From positions 248,001-312,000 of the forward strand of contig JACRPQ010000004.1 in NCBI GenBank assembly GCA_016223135.1: DNA of 64,000 nucleotides, written 5' to 3'. Positions 8,073-55,677 of this stretch are shown here, one piece after another. Made by a program: the position numbers and the translations under genes. Every line of letters begins with the position of its first letter. Within the stretch, counting starts at the first letter, position 1. This stretch comes from Chloroflexota bacterium. GTDB taxonomy: Bacteria; Chloroflexota; Anaerolineae; Anaerolineales; Villigracilaceae. The notes below the pieces were generated by a model. That model was not told the origin of the DNA. It did not search any database and saw nothing but the letters and a program-made list of their open reading frames with translations.

Positions 8073-8193
8073 CTAGCCACCCGACACTTTTGTTTTGGGA
8101 CGCAGATGAACGCTGATTTACGCTGATTTAGTTGTTTTTTTCTGCGCTTATCTGCGTTTTTCAACGTCCCATTTGAAACTGTCAGGTCGCTAG
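8073..8193. mobile_element. miniature inverted-repeat element M1, copy A, with 8-bp target duplication
   Basis: The 121-bp element starts CTAGCCACCCGACA and ends TGTCAGGTCGCTAG, which are imperfect terminal inverted repeats. It is flanked on both sides by ACTTTTTT (8065-8072 and 8194-8201). Inside are semi-palindromic arms built on GGGACGCAGATGAACGC and its reverse. No reading frame. A second, longer copy sits at 25541-25755. Confidence 0.85.
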
Positions 8194-18333: not shown

Positions 18334-18930
18334 GTGAATCGAACACATTGGATTATTGCAGGCATTGTCCTGGCTCTCGTTATCGTCGGGCTTTTGCTTT
18401 TCCCAAAGGCGCAGCCGAACATTCCACCGGCGGCATCCGCCGGCACGCCGCCCGTTGAACTGGTCTATTGCTCGAATGAACCGCTTGCGCCCTGTGTGGT
18501 CTCTTTCAGCGTGGATGCCTGGGACAACATGCTCGTCAACCTTCTGCTGCCCGACCTGTCCTTTCCGCCTTTTTACCTCACCATTGCGCGCGGCGGAGTC
18601 GAAACCGCCTATCCGTGTCAGCGGGTCAGTTATGCGCTCAACACCGCCTACTGCGCCGGTCCCAAACAACCGCCGGGCGAACCTCTCACGCTGCGCCTCA
18701 TCGCCAGTAAAGACCAAACACTCTTCGCAGAAGGAAACCTTTCCATCATCGGGCTGGCGTTCCCCACCTTGGGCGTTGCTCTCTACACACCGCCGCAGGA
18801 AACGCCCTCTGCGATAGAGACGGTCGTCTCCTCGCCCGAACCCTTCTCAACAGAATCTCCTCCGCCGTTCGTTCTGCCCACCCGCACCAAACCTGCGCCC
18901 ACTTTCTACCCGCCTCCCTCCTACCCATGA
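18334..18930 (+). CDS. membrane-anchored hypothetical protein (198 aa)
   Basis: Bitopic protein with one N-terminal helix (about 6-24, WIIAGIVLALVIVGLLLF) and an outside domain containing YCSNEPLAPCVVSFSVDAW and YPCQRVSYALNTAYCAGP. Four cysteines could form two disulfides. The last 45 residues are a Ser/Thr/Pro-rich tail. The start is GTG at 18334 behind TGAGGCGCCC; the upstream in-frame codons overlap the previous gene. The stop overlaps the next ATG as ATGA. Function unknown. Confidence 0.65.
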   Translation: MNRTHWIIAGIVLALVIVGLLLFPKAQPNIPPAASAGTPPVELVYCSNEPLAPCVVSFSVDAWDNMLVNLLLPDLSFPPFYLTIARGGVETAYPCQRVSYALNTAYCAGPKQPPGEPLTLRLIASKDQTLFAEGNLSIIGLAFPTLGVALYTPPQETPSAIETVVSSPEPFSTESPPPFVLPTRTKPAPTFYPPPSYP

Positions 18931-20687
18931 ACCCCTGGCTGGACGGTTTGACCGTTCTCACAAGCGAATGGCGGCTCACTCTCCCCATTCTTCTCGGCGC
19001 GTTTGCTTCTCAAGCCCTAATCGTTCTTTTCCTCGAATCCTTTTTCGGCGACCGCCTCGCCGCCTCCGAACGCCTTGCCCTTGCGGTGGGAGGCTGGACA
19101 CTGCCCCTCCTTCTTCTTTCACTGCTGTGGTACTTTACGGGATGGAACGGACTCTTTTGGATTCTTCCCGCCGCCCTGATTCTTCTCCTCCTCTTCCGCC
19201 TCCGCACGGACCTCAAACCGGCTGTGCGCCTCCCCAGCCTGTTTCTCGTCCTGTTCCTTTTTCTCTCCCTGCCCCTCCGCCTGGCATACGCCTCCCGAAC
19301 CGCCCTGCCCCTCTATTTTGACTCGGCGCAGCATTACCTCGTCATCAAGACCATTCTTCTGGAAAACCCATCCATTTTGTGGAACTGGCTAAGCGCCAGT
19401 TACTATCACTTTGGCTTTCATTTTCTTGCTGCTTTCATCGCCGCAGGGACGGGCGCAGAGATTGCCCGCGTCATGCTGATACTCGGGCAGGTCATCCTGC
19501 TGTTGATTCCTTTTTCCGTTTTTTTCATCGTCCGGCATGAGACGAACTCCGAGGCGGCGGGCGGCTTTGCCTTGCTCCTCGCCGCCTTTGGCTGGTACAT
19601 GCCTGCCCATGCCGTCAACTGGGGAAAGTACCCCGCCCTGATGAGCGCCGGCATGTTGGCATGGCTGTGGGGCATGACTCTCATTGTGTTTCGACAACGA
19701 AGCGCCTTTTCCAGAGCAAAGCGCCGCACTTTGTACCTCGTGCTGGCAGTCTGCGCCGCGCTCACCGTTCTCACGCACAGCCGCTCATTGATTGTCCTGG
19801 GCATCGTGATTCTTGCCTCGGCAATGTCGGCATGGCTGGAACAATGCTCCCGCCGCTGGATGCACGCCGCCTTGTTTGTGACGGCGGCAGTCGTCATCTG
19901 GCTGGGATGGCTGGCGTCGCGCCAGAGCCTGCTGACCCTCCTCTTCGACCCCTATCTCGTCAAAGGGATTTCAATTACCGCGCTTGTTCTTCTGCTCTTC
20001 GCTTTTGCGTGGATGGCTTTTCCCCGTTTCACATTCGTCTGTCTGACTTCAATCGCTTTGCTGTTGGGAAGCCTGTTCCTGCCTCCGACCATCCTTTCCG
20101 TTGGGCGCGGATGGACTCTGCTGGACCGTCCCTTTGTGGAGATGATTCTCTTCCTGCCGCTCTCTGTGCTGGGCGGGCTGGGGCTGGCAGGCTTGGAGAA
20201 ACGGCTGCATGGACGGTTTCTATGGCGCGCTGCCATTATCCTCCTGGCGGCGGGATGGGTCGTCGTTCGGGCGGTCTTTGGTTATGACTTGTATCCATCC
20301 GATTGCTGTGTAATCGTAGGAAATGATGACGTGACGGCAATGGACTGGATGGCAAAACAGCTGCCGCCGGAGGCGCACATCGGCATTGCATCCACGCAGC
20401 TCAACGTCCTGCCAAATGAAATCTTGGAGGGCGATGTGGGCGCTGACGCGGGAGTCTGGATCACCCCTCTAACGGGACGCGCGGCAACCCTGATCCCATT
20501 CAACGTGGATTTCAGCCAACCAGCCGCTCTCGACTCTTTGTGCCGCGCTGGAATCAGTCATCTTTTCATTGGTGAGAGAGGACAGACATTCGACCGGTCT
20601 TTGCTGGATTTGCGCCCGGAGTGGTACCGCCCCCTGCTCTCGATGCCAGAGACGACGGTCTACGAGGTGGCGGGGTGTGATAAATAA
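18927..20687 (+). CDS. polytopic membrane protein, glycosyltransferase-C-like
   Basis: The 586-residue protein has about 12-13 helices in the first 470 residues and a soluble C-terminal part of about 115 residues (MDWMAKQLPPEAHIGIASTQ onward). The architecture of many helices followed by a tail with a GDVGADAGVWI motif resembles bacterial GT-C or DUF6541-type proteins that move sugars from lipid carriers. The first extracellular loop does not show a clear DE/DD motif, so catalysis is unproven. Its TAA stop lies inside the 7-bp target duplication of miniature element M3, which therefore inserted without damaging the gene. Confidence 0.65.
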   Translation: MNPWLDGLTVLTSEWRLTLPILLGAFASQALIVLFLESFFGDRLAASERLALAVGGWTLPLLLLSLLWYFTGWNGLFWILPAALILLLLFRLRTDLKPAVRLPSLFLVLFLFLSLPLRLAYASRTALPLYFDSAQHYLVIKTILLENPSILWNWLSASYYHFGFHFLAAFIAAGTGAEIARVMLILGQVILLLIPFSVFFIVRHETNSEAAGGFALLLAAFGWYMPAHAVNWGKYPALMSAGMLAWLWGMTLIVFRQRSAFSRAKRRTLYLVLAVCAALTVLTHSRSLIVLGIVILASAMSAWLEQCSRRWMHAALFVTAAVVIWLGWLASRQSLLTLLFDPYLVKGISITALVLLLFAFAWMAFPRFTFVCLTSIALLLGSLFLPPTILSVGRGWTLLDRPFVEMILFLPLSVLGGLGLAGLEKRLHGRFLWRAAIILLAAGWVVVRAVFGYDLYPSDCCVIVGNDDVTAMDWMAKQLPPEAHIGIASTQLNVLPNEILEGDVGADAGVWITPLTGRAATLIPFNVDFSQPAALDSLCRAGISHLFIGERGQTFDRSLLDLRPEWYRPLLSMPETTVYEVAGCDK

Positions 20688-20787
20688 CCTGAATTCGGGA
20701 TAAGGCTTTTGAATCGCCCCGAAGGCTTTTGACGCAGCGGGTTCGAGAGCAGAATCAGCCTTCGGGACGCTTATCCCGAACTGACGT
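20688..20787. mobile_element. miniature hairpin element M3, copy 1, with TAAATAA target duplication
   Basis: The element is about 100 bp. The outer arms TTCGGGATAAG and CTTATCCCGAA and the inner arms CCCGAAGGCT and AGCCTTCGGG pair perfectly, so the single strand folds into a long hairpin. TAAATAA flanks both ends (20681-20687 and 20788-20794). Copy 2 at 25775 differs at only three positions. No coding capacity. Confidence 0.88.
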
Positions 20788-24664: not shown

Positions 24665-25459
24665 TTATTTGATGAGGTCAGCCAGCGGACCGCTCGGCGC
24701 AAGCATGGCGTGGAGTTCGGTGTACGGCACGATGATGGTCTGCGGTCCTGCCGCGTAGGGCGCCACCTGGTATTCGTCGAAGGTAATCATCAAGCCCTGC
24801 GGGGTGATGTTCCAGTTGCGGTAATTTTCGAGCGTCGGCTGTGCGCCTTCGGTGAAGGGTCCCTCGAAGAACGGCTGTTTGCTCAACTCGGCAATGCAAT
24901 AGGCGGAGATGGCTTCGAGATAGTTGGAGTCAGGCAGGAAGAGGTCGCCGAGGGTCAGTTCGCGGTTGTGAGCGAGGTCGTAGTTCAGGGTCAGGCTGTA
25001 GAGACCGGGGTGAGCCGCGCCGTCGGAGTAGAAGGAGAAGTCGAATTTCAGGCTCCAGATTTCGCCGAATTGATGGACGAGGGTATAGGTCACTTCGAGG
25101 CTGCTGCCGCCGCTCAGGGGCGGGTTGGGGTTTTGCAGAAAGTTTGCGCGGAAGGTCTCCACTTCCTTTTGGACAAGTCCCGCCAGCCGTTGATTGAACG
25201 CCTGCACGCGCGGGTCGCTGCTGCCGGTGAGCTGCGGGGTTTGGGCGGTGATGGTGAAGGGCGGGTTTTGATTGGTTTCGATGTACGGCTGGGAAATCAA
25301 CGTGACCTGCGCGCTGAGCGGCAGGGGCGTGGCGGTGGGGATGACGGCGGTCGGCGGCGGGGCGATGGGCGTGGGGACGCCGAAGGTGAAGGTCACGTTG
25401 CAGGCGAGGCTGAGCAAAACGAAGAGACTGGTCAACAAGAAGGCAGTTTTTTGATTCAT
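24665..25459 (-). CDS. RsiV-like lipoprotein (DUF4163/DUF3298)
   Basis: The exported protein has a lipobox (LLTSLFVLLSLACN) and a Pro/Thr linker. The start at 25459 is chosen because it begins the signal peptide. The body has AFNQRLAGLVQKEVETFRANF, LEVTYTLVHQFGEIWSLKFDFSFYSDGAAHPGLYSLTLNYDLAHNRELTLGDLF and the tail DYQVAPYAAGPQTIIVPYTELHAML-like pattern, which match the DUF3298 module found in anti-sigma factor RsiV and related exported proteins. No sigma factor is adjacent, so a regulatory role is not implied. Its upstream region is filled with miniature elements (25541-25986). Confidence 0.82.
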   Translation of the reverse strand: MNQKTAFLLTSLFVLLSLACNVTFTFGVPTPIAPPPTAVIPTATPLPLSAQVTLISQPYIETNQNPPFTITAQTPQLTGSSDPRVQAFNQRLAGLVQKEVETFRANFLQNPNPPLSGGSSLEVTYTLVHQFGEIWSLKFDFSFYSDGAAHPGLYSLTLNYDLAHNRELTLGDLFLPDSNYLEAISAYCIAELSKQPFFEGPFTEGAQPTLENYRNWNITPQGLMITFDEYQVAPYAAGPQTIIVPYTELHAMLAPSGPLADLIK

Positions 25460-25540
25460 CGGTGATGTTTTCTTTCTGTGGTTTTGGTGAATAGAACGTA
25501 AAGGTGGAATATATTGTTTCAAAGTTGCTTTGTTGCAATC

Positions 25541-25755
25541 ATTAGCCACCTAACACTTTTGTTTTGGAGGACGCAGATGAACGCTGATTTACGCTGATTT
25601 AACTGATGTTACGCAGTTTGTTCGTAGCGCGACATTTATGTCGCCTGAAAACGCGAGATAAATCTCGCGCTACCGCGTAAGGTGAGTGATTTAAGTTGTT
25701 TATCTGCGTTTATCTGCGTTTTTCAGCGTCCCATTTGAAACTGTCAGGTCGCTAG
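25541..25755. mobile_element. miniature element M1, copy B, flanked by TTGCAATC and carrying M4
   Basis: The ends TTAGCCACCTAACA and TGTCAGGTCGCTAG match copy A at 8073. The middle differs from copy A by an extra block at 25602-25693 that is itself a duplicated-target insertion. TTGCAATC flanks both sides (25533-25540 and 25756-25763). Confidence 0.85.
25602..25686. mobile_element. miniature element M4, nested in M1, with TGATTTA target duplication
   Basis: This 85-bp insertion is absent from M1 copy A and flanked by TGATTTA (25595-25601 and 25687-25693). It contains two short perfect palindromes, GCGACATTTATGTCGC (25629-25644) and GCGAGATAAATCTCGC. The ends share TTACGC in inverted orientation. 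A reversed, partly different copy is at 52151-52227. Confidence 0.85.
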
Positions 25756-25763
25756 TTGCAATC

Positions 25764-25978
25764 TCTCTACCGTAACCTGAATTCGGGATAAGGCTTTTGA
25801 ATCGTCCCGAAGGCTTTTGACGCAGCAGGTTCGAAAGCAGAATCAGCCTTCGGGACGCTTATCCCGAACTGACGTTACCGTACATTTCTCTCGGGAAAGA
25901 CCCTAAAGGTCTTTTTGGAAATTCTAAAATTCACGAAGGAAAAGCGGACCTTTAGGGTTTCTGTGTACGGTAAAGAAG
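25764..25978. mobile_element. miniature element M2 flanked by TTGCAATC, interrupted by M3
   Basis: With M3 and its 7-bp duplication removed, about 107 bp remain. It has arms TACCGTACA / TGTACGGTA and ACCCTAAAGGTC / GACCTTTAGGGT, and TTGCAATC at both borders (25756-25763 and 25979-25986). The left TACCGTA supplied the target for M3. No second copy of M2 is in this window, so its element status rests on the palindrome and flanks. Confidence 0.7.
25775..25875. mobile_element. miniature hairpin element M3, copy 2, with TACCGTA target duplication
   Basis: It is nearly identical to the copy at 20688 (three differences in about 100 bp) and is flanked by TACCGTA at 25768-25774 and 25876-25882. The target lies inside the left terminal repeat of M2, so M3 arrived after M2. 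Confidence 0.88.
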
Positions 25979-26028
25979 TTGCAATCATACCCTCGCAGTT
26001 TGCGCGCTTTGCGCAGCACGTAATTTGG

Positions 26029-26046
26029 GGGCGTTAGAGAACGCCC
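26029..26046. repeat. GGGCGTT-AGAG-AACGCCC hairpin
   Basis: This perfect 7-bp stem resembles the hairpin at 14345-14366: both have CGTT-NGAG-AACG cores and a TACGCT a few bases downstream. It lies just beyond the helicase stop codon on the minus strand, where it could act as a terminator stem, although no long T-run follows. Confidence 0.5.
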
Positions 26047-26090
26047 AGTACGCTGTAAAAACGTCATTGCAACGCAGTAGTATCAGAGCA

Positions 26091-48593: not shown

Positions 48594-49322
48594 TCACTTA
48601 TCTAACTCTGTGATCAGGAATTCCCAGGGACCATTTACCTCACCTGTGACAATCCCATCCAAAACCTGTTGGGCTTTTTCCCGAGCAACAGAAGCTGCTT
48701 TTTCTGCGAGCATGACTGAGATGCCTGTCTGTTCGTCGTAGGAACATTTGGCTTTCAATCCCAATGCCCGGGCTTGGGGATTTGTATCCAGTCTTTGTTG
48801 AAAATTCTCACAAGGCGGCAATTCTCTGGGAACAGCCCAGAATCCTGAAATGGTAAATTGAAGTGGCATTGTGAGTGTGTCGAGGTCATCTATTCGATAC
48901 CGTATGGATTCGCAGCGCCTGCCCATATTTTTCCCGTTCGCTTTTTCTTCACTGATGAATTCAGCCTCATCAGGCAGAACCTCATATAAGCCATAGGAAA
49001 GGGGTCCCGGCATTGTGTACCAATCTCCACCGTCTGGAGTGGAGTAGCATATTCCAACCTCTATTCCTGTTTCAATGAGTTTGGCGGATATGATCTCAAC
49101 CGTAATACCGTTTACGGTTTTTGTTCTCATGTCTGCTTGCTTGTCTGATACCACGGGGTTTGTTGCTACAGTGATTTGAATTGCTTCTGGTTGTTGATTA
49201 TTGTTGACTGCCAGAGCCTGTGATTGGGGACGGGATACATACCAGCCAATTGACAAAACCGTTGTAACAGTAAGTATTCCGACAAGAAGCGTCACGCCAA
49301 GTTTTCTGTTTTTTGTATACAT
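48594..49322 (-). CDS. membrane-anchored hypothetical protein (242 aa)
   Basis: N-terminal helix (LGVTLLVGILTVTTVLSIGWYVS) then an exported domain with VNGITVEIISAKLIETGIEVGICYSTPDGGDWYTMPGPLSYGLYEVLP, which resembles DUF4352-like immunoglobulin-type domains that bind ligands or partners. Four Cys. The stretch DTNPQARALGLKAKCSYDEQTGISVMLAEKAAS suggests a second small domain. Lies 31 bp downstream of the secreted DUF2690-like gene, on the same transcript, and ends in a strong terminator. Function unknown. Confidence 0.75.
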   Translation of the reverse strand: MYTKNRKLGVTLLVGILTVTTVLSIGWYVSRPQSQALAVNNNQQPEAIQITVATNPVVSDKQADMRTKTVNGITVEIISAKLIETGIEVGICYSTPDGGDWYTMPGPLSYGLYEVLPDEAEFISEEKANGKNMGRRCESIRYRIDDLDTLTMPLQFTISGFWAVPRELPPCENFQQRLDTNPQARALGLKAKCSYDEQTGISVMLAEKAASVAREKAQQVLDGIVTGEVNGPWEFLITELDK

Positions 49323-52150: not shown

Positions 52151-52227
52151 CTTACGCAAGACCTTGCGTAGAGCGCGTTTTCAGGCGACATAAATGTCGC
52201 GGTACGAATAAACTGCGTAACATCAGT
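52151..52227. mobile_element. miniature element M4, copy 2, in the ruvC-ruvA gap
   Basis: Reverse-oriented relative of the M4 at 25602. The segment 52172-52227 matches it with about two changes, including the palindrome GCGACATAAATGTCGC (52185-52200). The other end carries a different small hairpin, TTACGCAAGACCTTGCGTA. No clear target duplication. It begins two bases after the ruvC stop. Confidence 0.75.
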
Positions 52228-55574: not shown

Positions 55575-55677
55575 AGGGATAAGGCTTTTGAATCGTCCCG
55601 AAGGCTTGCGCGCAGCGGGTTCGCGGGCAGACCAGCCTTCGGGACGATTATGCCGAGCAGTGCGACATTTATGTCGC
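55575..55677. mobile_element. degenerate M3 copy 3 followed by an M4 palindrome
   Basis: GGGATAAGGCTTTTGAATCG and the inner arms CCCGAAGGCT / AGCCTTCGGG are kept (55575-55650), while the right outer arm has decayed to GATTATGCCGA. GCGACATTTATGTCGC follows at 55662-55677. Two families meet here, as they do at 25.6-25.9 kb. Confidence 0.75.

Follow-up and report, generated by a model that had tools for sequence, protein, structure and literature searches.

MITEs are well described in prokaryotes, including the Correia, Nezha, Chunjie and QMITE elements, in a review whose main text does not use the word 'nested' (PMC10969869). Insertion of mobile elements into one another has been catalogued in Haloquadratum walsbyi, where 192 element-in-element insertions, counting all kinds of element, showed a strong targeting preference and MITEs were the inserting element 31 times (PMC3119063). 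For the Anaerolineae, we found no paper on MITEs or insertion sequences in a search that covered few subscription journals. Neither MITEs nor pile-ups of one element in another are new to prokaryotes; the records that we describe here are unusually readable.

We analyzed a 64-kb stretch of DNA, hereafter the window (C3:248001-312000), within a 3.82-Mb draft assembly of 19 contigs that is 98.4% complete and broken at repeats. A cluster at 25533-25986 lies in the gap that separates a lipoprotein-like gene from a DEAD/DEAH-type helicase gene; among three named loci, the nearest to the helicase protein is from Anaerolinea sp. TT109_57_62 (85% identical), which points to an Anaerolineales-type Chloroflexota as the host. 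Taken as a whole, this cluster is very probably a pile-up of four MITE insertions, M1 to M4, into one intergenic gap. M4 inserted into an M1 and M3 into an M2, and the target sequences used by M1 and M2 overlap. The features are as follows, with duplication registers refined from family copies.

Near 25459, minus strand: start of the lipoprotein-like gene (named by eye)
25533-25541, plus strand: left target duplication of M1, TTGCAATC plus A (family duplication 8 bp)
25542-25755, plus strand: M1, split by M4 into halves 25542-25602 and 25687-25755; ends TTAGCCACC / GGTCGCTAG
25595-25602, plus strand: left target duplication of M4, TGATTTAA, at the hotspot within M1
25603-25686, plus strand: M4, nested in M1; placed from family copies
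25687-25694, plus strand: right target duplication of M4, TGATTTAA
25755-25762, plus strand: left target duplication of M2, GTTGCAAT; its initial G is the final base of M1
25756-25763, plus strand: right duplication of M1, TTGCAATC, overlapping the left M2 duplication
25763-25977, plus strand: M2, split by M3; ends CTCTCTACCGTA / TACGGTAAAGAA
25768-25774, plus strand: left target duplication of M3, TACCGTA (family motif TA[A/C]NNTA)
25775-25875, plus strand: M3, nested in the left end of M2; placed from family copies
25876-25882, plus strand: right target duplication of M3, TACCGTA
25978-25985, plus strand: right target duplication of M2, GTTGCAAT
26091, minus strand: stop of the DEAD/DEAH-type helicase gene (named by eye)

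The original prediction had read the nesting from target duplications and had proposed two insertions at one target, and both readings held: M4 lies in M1, M3 lies in M2, and the duplications of M1 and M2 overlap at the border where the elements touch. The 8-mer TTGCAATC at 25533, 25756 and 25979 accounts for three of its six plus-strand occurrences in the 64 kb. TACCGTA (25768 and 25876) has a single additional plus-strand copy in the window, at 48898; TGATTTA (25595 and 25687) occurs once more within M1, at 25585, and 11 times on the plus strand of the window. The M2 duplication GTTGCAAT is exact over 8 bp on both sides. M1 has TTGCAATCA at its left flank and TTGCAATC at its right, which places its left border one base off the 8-bp register. 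To the right of the cluster, the stretch around GGGCGTTAGAGAACGCCCAGTACGC (26030-26073) has matches of about 80-86% at several places elsewhere in the fetched sequence and is possibly a further repeat family.

Each of M1 to M4 is a family of non-coding repeats with inverted ends and a target duplication of characteristic length. The elements are about 84-122 bp long without their inserts, and all four are palindromic, with terminal inverted repeats. No ORF of at least 70 aa lies inside the cluster, and two such ORFs only graze its left edge. When folded as single DNA strands (the window M3 and M4, a solo M1 from window position 8073 and a solo M2 from L065), each element beat all 200 shuffles, with z from -4.65 to -5.83. 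The families, the folding and the ORF scan together bear out the proposal of four non-coding palindromic elements at this position.

Genome searches, in which 40 candidates per search were scored out of 332 (whole cluster), 107 (M1), 97 (M2) and 135 (M4), also returned the further copies of M1 to M4 that had been anticipated, at many unrelated sites. In the 471 kb inspected we counted at least 80 places for M1, 50 for M2, 34 for M3, 49 for M4 and 21 for a fifth family, M5; these lower bounds come from a chosen sample and include truncated copies. The 471 kb were drawn from the 3.82 Mb at loci picked by match, and fractions given here describe that sample and not genome-wide rates. A pattern of M1 ends allowing two mismatches was loose (163 matches against 66 for the backward control) and served to find places, not to count them.

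Duplication lengths were 8 bp for M1, 8 bp for M2, 7 bp for M3 and 7-8 bp for M4. At the best register, exact duplications flanked 18 of 29 two-ended M1 copies (8 bp; mispaired-flank control 0.00), 16 of 31 M2 copies (8 bp; control 0.07), 11 of 28 M3 copies (7 bp; control 0.07) and 17 of 27 M4 copies (7 bp; control 0.23), or 39-63% by family. The two-ended copies that lack an exact duplication (11/29 M1, 15/31 M2, 17/28 M3 and 10/27 M4) have decayed or shifted borders.

Other copies lie within the window. A solo, near-intact M1 occupies 8073-8193 (97.5% to the representative), a partial M4 occupies 52174-52227 and a diverged M3 occupies 55576-55656. An M3 copy at 20687-20787 adjoins the stop codon of a 586-aa ORF (18927-20687), the final base of the stop TAA being the first base of the element. 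The M3 insertion at 20687 may have set the C-terminus of this protein.

Each family showed a target preference. Copies with a readable duplication gave the motif TA[A/C]NNTA for M3 (12 copies) and TTANTNA for M4 (19 copies), and M1 targets were 81% A+T compared to 63% in the 6-bp flanks (22 copies). TA stood directly before the 8-bp M2 target in 9 of 27 copies compared to 3.9% near elements (p 5e-7), and in 8 of 26 when the M1-bordering copy was left out (p 4e-6). The insertions in the window fit these preferences, with M3 at TACCGTA, M2 after CTA and M4 at TGATTTAA. M2 landed at CTA|GTTGCAAT, where CTA is the end of M1 itself; the reverse complement of the M4 target, TTAAATCA, reads as the M4 motif plus an additional A, and another M1 host of M4 (L008) shows the target TTAATCA.

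DDE transposases supplied in trans would have moved all four elements. Because each family's preferred sequence sits in or at the others and is doubled with each insertion, stacking would need no special process.

Nesting recurred across the 471 kb. We found M5 in M1 15 times, M4 in M1 nine times and M2 in M1 five times; M1 in M1 was seen twice, and M3 in M1, M2 in M4 and M1 in M5 once each, while M3 in M2 occurred once besides the case in the window. Four of the five M2-in-M1 insertions lie in or at the central T-run and the fifth is in a mixed composite. Of the nine M4 insertions in M1, eight fall within positions 48-67 of the 122-base host; the remaining one is part of a mixed composite and used the same TGATTTAA target. 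Five of these M4 elements are oriented one way and four the opposite way, and therefore at least two events are certain. In a tree of M4 resting on about 85 bases, one nested pair grouped together, two oppositely oriented copies shared a small clade with free copies, and the remaining nested copies were scattered among free copies. Of the nine M1 hosts of M4, seven with M4 as their only insert could be placed in a tree resting on about 120 bases, each nearest to solo M1 copies. The nine cases probably represent about seven separate insertions at one site.

The M5-carrying hosts have a different history. The M5 insertion site is common to them, and of the 13 that could be placed in the M1 tree, 11 have another M5 host as their nearest copy (two do not). 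Of the 15 copies of the M1+M5 composite, 11 have exact outer 8-bp duplications, which vary from copy to copy; another agrees at 7 of 8 bases and three have no match. Because the site is common, the hosts cluster, and the outer duplications are exact and different, we conclude that the nested M1+M5 composite was itself copied and moved as a unit.

Contacts between M1 and M2 also recurred. In the sample, non-nested M1-M2 pairs numbered 13 within 1500 bp, eight within 60 bp and four at 6-7 bp, with the left border of the window M2, which M3 splits, set by hand for this count. In all four 6-7 bp pairs, that of the window included, the right end of M1 faces M2. Four M1-M2 pairs, again with that of the window, have a duplication common to both elements across the border. 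At C17:84055, TAAACAAA stands at the right flank of M2 and at the far-left flank of M1, and the M1 duplication AACAAATT takes in two bases of M2; M1 therefore came second. At C3:680235 the M1 duplication covers two bases of M2, and the right end of M2 is lost. Either order fits at C3:337379 and in the window, where TTGCAATCA precedes the M1 left end TTAG; this flank is compatible with M1 arriving first and making a 9-bp duplication, or with M2 arriving first and a small change following later. By eye, M3 lies at M1 borders at C3:554796 and C9:42492 and at M4 borders at C12:85222 and C19:54176, and at C11:123230 an M4 adjoins another M4, with AATTA at the first and second borders and AATTAA at the third.

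One speculative idea, to which we give little credence, is that the same or sister IS4-type transposases recognize the ends of both M1 and M2, and that bound transposase directs the next insertion onto the border. If so, side-by-side stacking would be active end-targeting between MITE families and not only a shared AT-rich preference. The spacing of 6-7 bp in four of the eight non-nested pairs within 60 bp is in keeping with end-targeting, as are the order at C17:84055, where M1 came second with a duplication over 2 bp of M2, and a partial similarity of ends noted by eye (CTAGC.ACC..ACA in M1 and CTTGC.GCC..ACA in an M2 relative). However, other family pairs touch too, and sequence preference may suffice for the M1-M2 contacts because the M1 end CTAG supplies the TA favored by M2.

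We compared the locus with relatives, of which G008 is the closest by flanking gene (88% protein identity). The original prediction had expected an empty-site orthologue reading GTTGCAATCAT once, and this was not recovered when the joined window flanks were aligned to four relatives; the target sequence is not conserved in the four, and gaps other than that of G008 are too diverged to show it. In G008 the gap between the same two genes is without M1, M2 and M3 and holds a different M4-like element, and we detected no M1-M4 in the short gaps of G005, G006 and G007. The gaps of the relatives agree with insertion after the split from them. Of 18 genomes, four gave M2 matches, which were weak outside its own genome, and G008 gave none; the family looks like an expansion of its own lineage. 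G008 matches to a query of M1 and M5, among the matches listed, fall wholly or mainly in the M5 part, and M1 in its present form is probably also an expansion of its own lineage. By eye, M5 copies in G008 (L195, L209 and L220) have CAGKACTTACGC ends and 7-bp duplications, TCACTGA or CTATTGA, which are near the M4 pattern.

The original prediction had also held that transposases encoded elsewhere moved the elements. For M1 a candidate came from G008, which carries a complete insertion sequence at L331:957-2149 with ends TTAGCCACCAGACAGTTT / AAACTGTCTGGTGGCTAG, a 362-aa transposase and, in the single copy available, an 8-bp duplication, AAAGTTTT, of the same length as in the M1 family. Compared over 36 bases, its ends and those of M1 show 5 mismatches, against 11 for the next best of the 35 loci scanned and 10 for the best shuffle (one per locus). 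The transposase passes the NCBIfam IS4_2 cut-off (169.6 bits against 152). G008 appears to hold the insertion sequence without M1. Among 18 genomes of the genus, five had matches to the M1-type transposase. G014 holds a related but broken copy, with ends CTAGTCACCCGACAGTTT and CTAGCGCCCCGACAGCTT; by eye, this copy (L338, G014:C89, 579-2163) contains two palindromic-looking inserts at about 600-820 and 1080-1260, one of which has the ends of the DDE_Tnp_1_3 element of L304. We infer that M1 is a non-autonomous partner of an IS4-type element. A candidate outside source of transposase for M1 was found in a close relative, and that transposase had no match in the assembly that carries M1, a 98.4% complete draft, broken at other repeats, in which a copy could have been missed.

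Further candidates were examined within the same assembly. A search for DDE_Tnp_1 gave two weak matches, none over the cut-off. These two loci, L192 (DDE_Tnp_1_3), presumably an IS982-type fragment, and L193 (DDE_Tnp_1_6 with DUF772), which we take to be an IS1182-like transposase, were rejected as autonomous partners; the ends of M1 to M5 matched them no better than shuffles. Because insertion sequences break assemblies, we also read 35 of the 38 contig ends. By eye, one of these has an IS3-like end; Pfam showed an IS200-like transposase, and there was also a repeat beside TGTAC-rich flanks; MITE copies (M1, M2 and M4) lay inside three contig-end stretches, and no M1-M5 ends were seen at the contig edges. 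Two groups of five contig ends (L251, L258, L266, L274 and L276; L249, L257, L262, L264 and L273) have about 130 bp in common ending GTTGTAAG and running into TGTACCTG-rich flanks. These ten ends probably mark a multi-copy element that collapsed and is absent from the assembly.

For the other families, the 35-locus scan gave no partner for M2, M3, M4 or M5 whose ends convincingly beat shuffles. M2 ends compared to IS4-family elements were not better than shuffles in the formal scan; an insertion sequence in G004 with ends TTGATTACCTTACA and a duplication of about 9 bp resembles M2 only in part, and its transposase, at 117.9 against 152, falls below the IS4_2 cut-off. In G017, an IS701-type element with ends GGACTTACGCAGTTG is a lead for M5 and M4, neither of which clearly beat shuffles in the formal scan; a 4-bp duplication is expected of IS701, and the M5 duplications of G008, by eye, are 7 bp long. 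Relatives of M1 and M2 in G001, G007, G010, G014 and G016 were rejected as parents, those readable with two ends being MITE-sized and the others fragments. Some of the MITE-sized relatives carry inserts (about 300 bp).

The cluster could have been assembled by fewer than four local insertions if an M1 with its M4, or an M2 with its M3, had arrived ready-made as one nested composite. We regard this as improbable, even though composites do move in this genome, as the 15 copies of M1+M5, the 11 exact and differing outer duplications among them, and the grouping of 11 of 13 M5 hosts attest, and two other M1 copies carry an M4 of the same subtype at the same place and in the same orientation as in the window. 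The halves of the window M1, however, are nearest to solo M1 copies and not to other M4 hosts (a weak tree of short sequences), and the other M3-carrying M2 (C12:135075) has its M3 at a different site.

The contact between M1 and M2 might instead have arisen by recombination between elements at different places, and truncated M2-M1 junctions do exist at C1:128645 and C12:153741. Recombination seems very unlikely here, as the outer borders of the pair both carry GTTGCAATCAT, the junction retains the full ends of both elements, and three other M1-M2 contacts have the same 6-7 bp spacing. It is equally hard to credit that the repeats are hairpin cassettes kept by the host (REP-like elements, terminators or regulatory RNA) and not mobile elements. 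Strong hairpins and an intergenic position at this locus are what such cassettes would show, but the family-specific duplications, the copies at unrelated sites, a sister locus that lacks M1-M3 and the match of M1 to IS4-type ends all speak for mobility. Four MITE insertions into one gap remain the best explanation of the cluster.

Five MITE families share this genome. Their readable target motifs, the repeated insertions at the same internal site and a nested composite amplified as a unit make it a natural record of how small elements land in one another, and of how composites remain mobile when their outer ends are intact. The families also place an abundant set of MITEs, one of them tied to IS4-type elements, in an Anaerolineales-type genome (Chloroflexota). 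M1 has terminal repeats closely similar to those of IS4-family insertion sequences (NCBIfam NF033591; the G008 copy) and the same 8-bp duplication, but it is only about 122 bp long and encodes no transposase, and a search of its own assembly for that of the IS4-family element found none.

Like the bacterial and archaeal MITEs reviewed in PMC10969869, the elements described here are short and non-coding, with inverted ends, target duplications and many copies, often intergenic; they differ in that several families strike one another at fixed sites. In Coxiella, QMITE2 is likewise the target of another element, but there a full insertion sequence, IS1111, lands in the MITE (PMC10969869), whereas here short elements land in short elements. 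A preference for clustered MITE insertions has been reported for carrot DcSto, in that case for eukaryotic Stowaway-like elements (PMC3695323). In Haloquadratum walsbyi, too, small transposase-free elements frequently enter other mobile elements. However, Table 5 of that study gives zero insertions into a MITE, and the dominant SMR insertions occurred without duplication (PMC3119063), whereas in this genome MITEs enter MITEs and do so with target duplications.
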